Positions 42,801 to 45,800 of a DNA stretch of 64,000 nt are shown here, piece by piece. The stretch covers positions 22,729,818 through 22,793,817 of the forward strand of contig NC_058506.1 of NCBI RefSeq assembly GCF_020382885.2. The letters run 5' to 3'. The position numbers and the translations under genes were made by a program. The notes beneath the pieces were generated by a model, which worked only from the letters and a program-made list of their open reading frames with translations, was not told where the DNA came from and made no database searches. Each line of letters starts with the position of its first letter. Within the stretch, counting starts at the first letter, position 1. The stretch is from Scatophagus argus (Eukaryota; Chordata; Actinopteri; Scatophagidae).

Positions 42801-45800
42801 CTAAACCATTGAGATTTCCCTTCACTGGAAGTCAGGGGCCGAGCCCAAACCCTGAGAAACAGCCCCATGAGGAGGGGTGTCCCAATACTTTTGTGTATCT
42901 CAGTGAACTGCCCAAAATCATTCTTGGCAGATAAAACACTGATGAAACCAGCTTCTGCACCACTATTAACACTTCATTTGTTGATTATATGTTGTATTAA
43001 TACTTAAACAGAAAAGCAACTACAGTTTTCAGATAAATGTAGCAGAGTAAAAAGTACATTATCTTTATACTTTTCCTTCCTTGCAGAATAGAAGAAAACG
43101 GAAATACTCCAAGTACCTGAAAACTGTACCTGAGTGCAGTAAATGTATATGAGTTATTCTGTATTCTACCTGGGGGAGATGTCACAGCCCTGCTGCATGA
43201 AGGCCCCCAGCGAGAACCACAGAGAATTAAAGATCCCAAAGTCATTGGTGTGTTCTGGAGTCTCTTTTTCTTTCTGCTGGTTCTGGTTCTGGTTCTGGAC
43301 CTGAGCCTGGGAGAATCCTGAGGAACGAAACCCAACACACACAACACAACACAACACAAAACCAGCACATGAAAATCCACTTTCACAAGTTACAAGAGAA
43401 GAAAATAATTCAGATAAAAATGGTGGCAGATGATGACAATAATGATGGAGGATGATGATGATGAGAATGATCATCAGGATGATGATGATGACAATGATGA
43501 TGATGATGATGAGGATGATGATGAGGAGTATGATAATGAGGATGCTGATGATGATGATGATGAGGATGATGATGAGGATGGTGACGATGATGATGAAGAT
43601 GATGATGATGAGGATGGTGATGATGATGAAGATGACGATGAGGATGGTGATGATAAAGATGATGATGATGAGGATGTGATGATGATGATGAAGATGATGA
43701 TGAGGATGGTGACGGTGATGATAATGACAATGAGGATGATGAGGATGATCATGCTGATGAGGGAGATGATAAGAATGATGATGATGATGATGATGATGAG
43801 GATGATGAGGATATACCTGGAGAGTGAGTGAGCTCAGAGGACGAGGTTGGCAGAGCTCGATGAGAGGCAGCGGATGGAAGAGTTTCATCTTCATCATCAG
43901 AGTCTTCACCCTGCCATTCATATGGACTGAAACGACTCACCTAAGACACAAAGACAGGTATCATCAGCTCCAGGTACTTCAAGTACACAGCAGCAGTCAC
44001 ATTCGGCCATCCGTCCTTCAGTTCCATATTCCCTCACGTCAAACTGGTCTCATAACATTTAATGACATGTTAATGAAAAATCCAAAGTGAGGAGCTGAGG
44101 AGAACATTCACTCCACTGAACGAAACACGACAGCCAGCATCCAACACAACCACATGACAGTTTTATGTTAACACGTTCGGACTGCTTCGTCATGTTTACC
44201 ACAGGTTATAAGATCGGCATTGATGTCACGCTGTCATAACATCTCAAGCTGAGTCAGCTTAGCAATAATAAAATCAGTCATGAGCCTTCATAAAGACTCC
44301 ATCAGGTGTCATGTCAGCCTTATGAACGCCTCTCTGAACAAAGTGAAATATCAAGCCTTTTCTCCTGCACACTACTGTCAGTCCAGAGGTCAGCTTTCCT
44401 GAGGAGGCGCAGCGGAGCTCCTCCTGTTCTGAGCTGGTGACACGCTGGCTCGGCGCATACCGAGAAGATGAAGTGGGCAGAACAGACACAATGAGAAGGT
44501 TTATTTAACAGCACATTTCTAAGCAAAGCTGGACATTTTCCACATACAGACGACACATTAACACCAGGTGCAAACGAGGCGTCCGGCGTCTGTGTCCACA
44601 TCTAAAACACACAACACCGCCATCAAGCACAGATGACACAAACACCCGCGAACACACATTCACACACTCCCCTCACCAGGAAGAGCACCACGCTGACTCC
44701 GATGTAGGCGAAGACGATGCACATCCAGATCTCGTAGGCCAGCGGGTCGAGGAAGGAGAAGACGCCCGGTTTGGACTTGGTGGGTTTCTTGATCATGATG
44801 GAGATCCCCAGAGACATGAAGGGTTTGGTGAAGTCGATCACCTGCTCTCGCACCAGAGTGATGGTCAGCGGGGCGACGGCCACGTCGGCCTTCTGCACAG
44901 AGAGACGACGAGACGTTCAGGCGGACAACAGCCTTCACTTACTGACTGCTTCTTTCTCCTGTTGGTTTATGAAGTCAAAGCTCGCTTGTTTCCATCCCAA
45001 TCTGTTGATTCGTTCTTAACAGAGCTGCACACAGTGGTCCACAGCCAGACCACCAGACAGACAGACCAGATTTTTCCTTCTCTGACTGTTTTATTTTGAA
45101 AAGAAGATAAGATGCCTGAAGAGGAAGAATATTCCAGAAATCCACACACGAAAATAAACTAAAATTTCAATAAACAAATACATTTCATCTGGCACAAAGA
45201 TTTTCTGCTCTATTTCGCTTTGACTCTCAGATGCTACAACAAACAATTACGAGAGCACCAAATGTGCATTCATCCTTCGCTGAAATTAGTCCCCAATAAG
45301 CTGAGGTGTTCTCAAGGTTTTCTGTCTTCAGTGGGGACCAGTGGACTCGGAGCCACAGACAGCTGAGAGCCACAGACAGCTGGAAGAAGATGCTTCCCAA
45401 CTTCAACGGAAACACAACAGCAGCGTTTTGAGCGGGACGGATGTTCTGTCTCCGGGTCACACTCACCCCGTACACCAGCTCTCCCACCATGCCGTTCCAC
45501 ATCTTTGTTTCGGGGTCCCTGGCGCCGTACTTGCCGTCGCCCACCAGCTCGAGGCGGTAGACGAAGCCGACGTGTTTGGCGATCTCTGCGGCCAGTTCTG
45601 CGCAGTAACCTTCGTACTTGTCATTTCCCTCAAACTGCTCGTGGTTCTTCTTCAGCATCATGTAGGGCGCTTCCTGTTGACACACGGCATCCACAGGTTG
45701 AGGATATGTGAGGACGGAAATACACATCCTGTTTCCAAAATAGAAGCACAGGAAGATTGTGAACAGTATTGTGTCCTCCCTGTCTTACCAGTATGGTAGT

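Follow-up and report, generated by a model that had tools for sequence, protein, structure and literature searches.

Genes and features of the locus

The window, that is, the whole stretch of 64,000 nucleotides of Scatophagus argus DNA that was analysed, carries on its minus strand a gene for an AMPA receptor subunit of the GluA1 type (gria1). A tblastn search with rat GluA1 placed its coding pieces between 56722 and 30657; it did not recover the first coding exons in the 64-kb window, and these may lie beyond it. The minus strand also holds a core-histone gene (PF00125; 7503-7898), which presumably encodes an H2B-like protein. The RNA-family search of the window returned two histone 3' stem-loops, at 7432-7476 on the minus strand and at 5904-5948 on the plus strand, and no other family; the plus-strand stem-loop may thus lie downstream of another histone gene. 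On the plus strand, a single long open reading frame of 424 aa (9417-10691) ends in a C-terminal RING finger (PF13920) and is assumed by us to be RNF26-like, and parts of a gene for a NIPA-type magnesium transporter (PF05653) lie at 18382-21249, in the orientation opposite to gria1. The region 1150-2045 has, on the minus strand, three overlapping frames, each of which encodes STARVQPEY-like repeats, and it looks like a minisatellite.

Identity of the gria1 gene

The coding pieces were joined into a query that lacked the first exons and a few short stretches of exon sequence, and this was compared with the PDB. Among the best 60 of 401 rows, nine GluA1-type chains scored 1259.8-1328.5 bits, while the remaining 51 rows scored at most 1196.0 bits. 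All nine are named GluA1, except for 9j92_A, which is named 'Glutamate receptor' and ranks among them. As these nine chains outscored the other rows listed, the gene was identified as gria1; within the best 60 of 401 PDB rows the best similarity over the protein was to GluA1 rather than to GluA2-4. A Gln at the Q/R site and the SYTANLAAF motif in M3 are both present. Two mutually similar exons of the flip/flop type were found at 36890-36774 and at ∼36018-35893, the first of which we take to be flop-like and the second flip-like. Mammalian GluA1 (chains 9s3z_A and 6njl_A) and the fish protein are alike in domain order, in M1-M4, in the Gln at the Q/R site, in having flop- and flip-like exons and in the last residues of the tail.

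Exons and introns of the M1-to-pore span

In mammals the span from the S1 domain to the pore is encoded by one exon, which measures 371 nt in GRIA1. The preliminary description had split the M1-M2 loop of the fish gene by two introns and had counted three exons with a total of 488 bp for this span. Both statements held, with the exon coordinates, the open frame and the splice-site scores in agreement. All of the following features are on the minus strand, and slashes mark exon borders. Exon A (11a in the preliminary description; 44677-44892, 216 nt) encodes the end of S1, the pre-M1 region and M1 (KADVAV to VVLFL) and ends at 44677 in phase 0, with the donor CTG/GTGAGG. Intron 1 (43941-44676, 736 nt, GT..AG) lies at the border between M1 and the loop and contains a branch-like CTGAT 27 nt upstream of its acceptor. 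Exon B (11b; 43817-43940, 124 nt) is bounded by the acceptor TCTTAG/GTG and the donor CAG/GTATAT, runs from phase 0 to phase 1 and encodes 42 residues, the last codon being split. Intron 2 (43318-43816, 499 nt, GT..AG) is filled for the most part by imperfect repeats of a GAT/ATC trinucleotide (43429-43812, about 128 units), an array that starts at the fifth base of the intron. Exon C (43170-43317, 148 nt) encodes the rest of the loop, M2 and the pore loop with the Q/R-site Gln, and the next exon, with the SYTANLAAF motif of M3, is located at 41323-41521. The three exons add up to 216 + 124 + 148 = 488 nt, and subtraction of 117 nt gives 371 nt, in agreement with a difference of 39 codons. When joined, exons A, B and C are free of stops from KADVAV to ISPR and continue in one frame into the next two exons. 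Retention of the introns as a coding form was ruled out by early stops in both introns 1 and 2. The GAT/ATC array is likely to be length-polymorphic and assembly-prone.

Splice sites were scored with simple generic vertebrate weight matrices and not with MaxEntScan. These matrices are a rough guide only, since the donor of exon C (1.05, 94.3rd percentile) and another acceptor of gria1, at 45673 (0.67, 88.5th percentile), both scored low. The intron 1 donor at the end of exon A scored 5.23 (99.5th percentile of the 4525 GT sites on the strand) and the intron 1 acceptor 5.04 (98.5th percentile of the 4676 AG sites), the intron 2 acceptor was in the 98.3rd percentile of the AG sites, and the donor of exon B was weak (2.19). 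The weak donors of exons B and C, together with the array that adjoins the exon B donor, would fit an error of the gene model or the assembly, with other sites used in the message or with the array beside exon B misassembled. Exons B and C, however, each have a conserved end, and the acceptors of both introns are strong, so that we regard such an artefact as highly improbable.

Length and composition of the M1-M2 loop

With VSRF taken as its start and the residue preceding (D/E)FGIF as its end, the loop comprises 66 residues in the fish protein and 27 in rat GluA1, a difference of 39. In the rat sequence used, the 203 residues that matter here, residues 406-608 of the 907-residue chains whose numbering is followed throughout, match chain 9ovv_A in full. 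In the HMMER alignment 40 query residues (478-517) remained unaligned opposite one residue of 9s3z_A, which again corresponds to 39 additional residues. The enlargement of the loop by about 39 residues, as proposed earlier, was thus reached by two routes.

The additional coding sequence is divided by intron 2. The share of exon B (43817-43883, minus strand) amounts to 67 nt and 23 residues when the acidic part of the loop is aligned by eye, and the share of exon C (43268-43317, minus strand) amounts to 50 nt and 16 residues and includes three AACCAG units (QNQNQN). The insert is Ser/Thr-rich and then Gln/Asn-rich, and the three AACCAG repeats are present, as the preliminary description had it. 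Its statement that the added residues are acidic was mostly wrong, as the acidic patch for the most part aligns with the acidic part of a normal loop. In the manual alignment the only charged residues among the 39 added ones are 2 Glu, 1 Lys and 1 Arg, so that the insert is about neutral, and the net charge of the loop is -8 over 66 residues in the fish compared with -5 over 27 in GluA1. HMMER paired the fish GEDSDD with SEEFEE of GluA1 and placed EDE in the gap. The two alignments disagree on EDE, and the insert can therefore be delimited only to within a few residues. That 39 inserted codons are open is by itself little evidence.

Among the titles listed in capped searches of the open-licence literature, none was on the M1-M2 loop of fish GluA1, and on this basis the loop cannot be called unreported. 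The AMPA receptor genes of tilapia and zebrafish have reportedly been the subject of earlier work by Chow and colleagues. The accessible parts of PMC4018279 and PMC5337974 contained nothing on the loop of fish GluA1, and PMC4778064 was set aside, as its 'Loop1' is an extracellular loop of a different protein. Relatives were sought with an 81-residue query in collections that are not meant for fish DNA, where viral contigs gave 45 pattern matches and 0 relatives and prokaryote contigs gave 596 pattern matches and 0 relatives.

The CaMKII site of loop 1

In the YEWHSEE motif of rat GluA1 the Ser is S567 (907-residue numbering). The fish sequence reads YEWQGED, so that the 27-residue mammalian loop with S567 stands against a 66-residue fish loop with a Gly at this position. 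In PMC5022001, S567 is described as a CaMKII site of loop 1 that is important for trafficking, with L577 as the equivalent in GluA3, and work on a role of S567 in synaptic targeting is cited; PMC10779435 states that phosphorylation of S567 inhibits synaptic insertion. Between these two texts the sign of the S567 effect is not settled. It had been suggested that, as loop 1 of mammalian GluA1 holds a CaMKII site involved in synaptic targeting, a longer, highly charged loop could alter trafficking; with S567 replaced by Gly, the control through this site is more likely to have been lost than altered. S567 is a regulatory feature of mammalian GluA1 and does not decide family membership.

A motif scan of the fish loop for R-x-x-S/T gave no match. 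This is weak evidence and does not exclude CaMKII, because S567 in YEWHS does not fit the motif. Three S-x-x-E motifs occur in the fish loop (SPYE, SDDE and SSSE), of which SPYE is also found in rat GluA1 and SDDE, a casein kinase 2-type motif, lies near the Gly that replaces S567.

The enlargement may also be nothing more than neutral drift, or common to most percomorph gria1 paralogues, in which case a tolerant, disordered loop would have grown without an effect on the receptor. The low complexity of the insert and its position beside a trinucleotide array are in line with this explanation, as is the observation that rat GluA1 and GluA2 already differ in loop sequence. Against it stands the replacement of S567, a residue with a reported function in mammals according to PMC5022001. 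We consider this explanation a serious contender, with somewhat less than even odds.

C-terminal tail

The M4 exon ends in ESRRMK, and the last exon follows with ELIDAAMM, a Gly/Ala-rich stretch and an ASTGM end (32953-30870, minus strand). This last coding exon, which encodes the C-terminal tail, is located at 30654-30869 on the minus strand and ends in ASTGM and a stop. The tail of mammalian GluA1 has GFCLIPQQS and LPRNS, whereas no clear counterpart of either could be found in the tail of fish gria1. The stretch from GFCLIPQQS to LPRNS holds the CaMKII/PKA sites S831 and S845. A motif search of 30.6-33.1 kb gave PQQ twice, QHS once and no GFC, and tblastn in the tail intron gave weak matches only, with E values of at least 38 on the minus strand. 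A search for a missing tail microexon yielded 17 candidates with a best BLOSUM score of 2, none of which was convincing. In the HMMER alignment the tail region had little identity to GluA1. Read-through of the donor after M4 (32849-32953, minus strand) would give an alternative tail of 34 residues, followed by a stop.

Splice-site choice around exon B

For intron 2, 25 GT donors (43912-43331) and 19 AG acceptors (43890-43233) were combined into 231 pairs with an intron of at least 70 nt. The pair given in the preliminary description, donor 43817 with acceptor 43317, had the best summed score (rank 1 of 231). It is also one of ten pairs in this set that remain open and rejoin the pore frame. 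Rank 2 of 231 was held by donor 43910 with the same acceptor, a pair that is likewise in frame and drops 31 residues, leaving a loop of 35. This alternative donor, AGG/GTGAAG (43904-43912, minus strand; last exon base 43910), lies within exon B, scored 1.37 and could yield a loop nearer to the mammalian length. It is conceivable, if rather doubtful, that alternative splicing determines how long the loop is, in which case donors 43910 and 43817 would compete to give 35 or 66 residues and the long form may be the minor one. The two leading ranks and the shared frame of these pairs speak for such a competition, but a rank by score is no proof of use, donor 43910 is weaker than donor 43817 and the matrices are simple generic ones, not those of MaxEntScan.

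The earlier conclusion that the exon phases force the inclusion of exon 11b stood in part. With the exact boundaries of exons A and C, skipping of exon B shifts the frame and leads to a stop in the next exon. The pair 43910/43317 is nonetheless in frame, and so are junctions of exon A with acceptors 43306 or 43300, although the latter two lack SRFSPYEW.

A donor-like site, TAG/GTGAGT (43935-43943, minus strand), coincides exactly with the acceptor of exon B and was considered as a putative recursive 5' splice site. It scored 6.80 in its genomic context (99.8th percentile), and the CTG/GTGAGT that would be formed after removal of intron 1 scored 6.32 with the simple matrix, more than each of the seven gria1 donors scored. 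According to PMC6224609, an exon whose start re-creates a donor at the junction counts as a putative recursive-splicing exon, a class that takes in 1.7-4.9% of human exons depending on the threshold; the exon junction complex (EJC) represses the recursive step, and among the sensitive exons acceptors are on the whole stronger and donors weaker. A recursive-splicing exon would be expected to restore a donor that matches 90% of real donors in strength, to be skipped when the EJC is lost and to give lariats at the junction. Exon B resembles the annotated recursive-splicing exons of that text in its strong junction donor, strong acceptor and weak own donor, and differs from them in being known here from sequence, with simple matrix scoring only.

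Exon 11b could accordingly be pictured as a recursive-splicing exon, the loss of which after removal of intron 1 would cause a frameshift and decay of the message, with the EJC tuning the amount of receptor. Its features would suit such a role, as the reconstituted donor (6.32) exceeds the exon's own donor (2.19), the acceptor scored 5.04 and skipping brings a stop in the next exon. The GTGAGT at the start of exon B, however, also just encodes the conserved Val-Ser, and the share of qualifying human exons and the repression of the step by the EJC, both as given in PMC6224609, speak against it as well. We judge a recursive role of exon 11b to be improbable.

Origin of the introns

Comparison of intron 1 with the rest of the window gave matches of 14-24 nt only (E 0.47), and intron 2, compared with the window with the low-complexity filter on, matched itself only. 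The start of intron 2 shared 11 bases with exon C, a value reached by 18 of 300 shuffles and thus somewhat raised. The values of the other three comparisons between intron ends and exons were reached by 83, 297 and 290 of 300 shuffles, and that of exon B against exon C by 293 of 300. The four intron-end comparisons revealed no clear sign of a duplication behind the introns.

Intron gain in teleosts is already known as a process, as judged from PMC12357937, on slc26a1/a2 of ray-finned fish, and PMC3151243, on gained introns in the fish melanocortin receptors MC2R/MC5R with MAG/R insertion sites. These genes are like fish gria1 in having extra introns inside conserved coding exons. The intron 2 site of gria1 (CAG/G) fits the MAG/R rule of PMC3151243, whereas the intron 1 site (CTG/G) does not. 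Intron 2 is also flanked by extra codons, unlike the gained introns of slc26a1/a2 and MC2R/MC5R as described in the two sources. With regard to both the direction and the age of the change, we infer that the gria1 introns are gains and not mammalian losses.

Discussion

The reading that we prefer, with a probability of roughly 0.55, is that of an apparently functional fish gria1 with an ordinary channel, in which the loop exon has been split by two introns, the loop has been enlarged and the control through S567 has been lost. Intron 1 would have entered at the border of M1 and the loop without added residues, and intron 2 within the loop, where 67 + 50 additional coding nucleotides adjoin it on its two sides. 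As these extra nucleotides flank intron 2, the enlargement is probably tied to it, and would either have come with the intron or have built up along its borders through slippage and a shift of the splice sites. The predicted product is an ordinary GluA1 channel subunit, with the Q/R-site Gln and M1-M4, that carries a cytoplasmic and probably disordered loop of 66 residues. In such a subunit the S567-based control of synaptic targeting by loop 1 would be lost, and gating would probably be little changed.

A wider reading, which is speculative and in our view quite improbable, is that a gria1 paralogue has shed CaMKII-type control, at S567 and apparently also in the S831/S845 region, and has gained a loop adjustable by splicing, so that delivery would be governed by splicing and by CK2-type phosphorylation. 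On this wider reading the adjustable loop would have 35 or 66 residues or have its frame shifted through recursive skipping of exon 11b.

The loop may be specific to the species, to a clade or to one paralogue of all teleosts, and here lies the main doubt over its significance. If drift alone lies behind it, the gene would be a neat example of a gained intron next to which the coding sequence has grown, and would carry little wider weight. A long-loop GluA1 that lacks S567 would, on the preferred reading, offer a natural test of whether S567 is needed outside mammals, and the same gene would allow it to be tested whether fish have divided the duties of GluA1 between paralogues.
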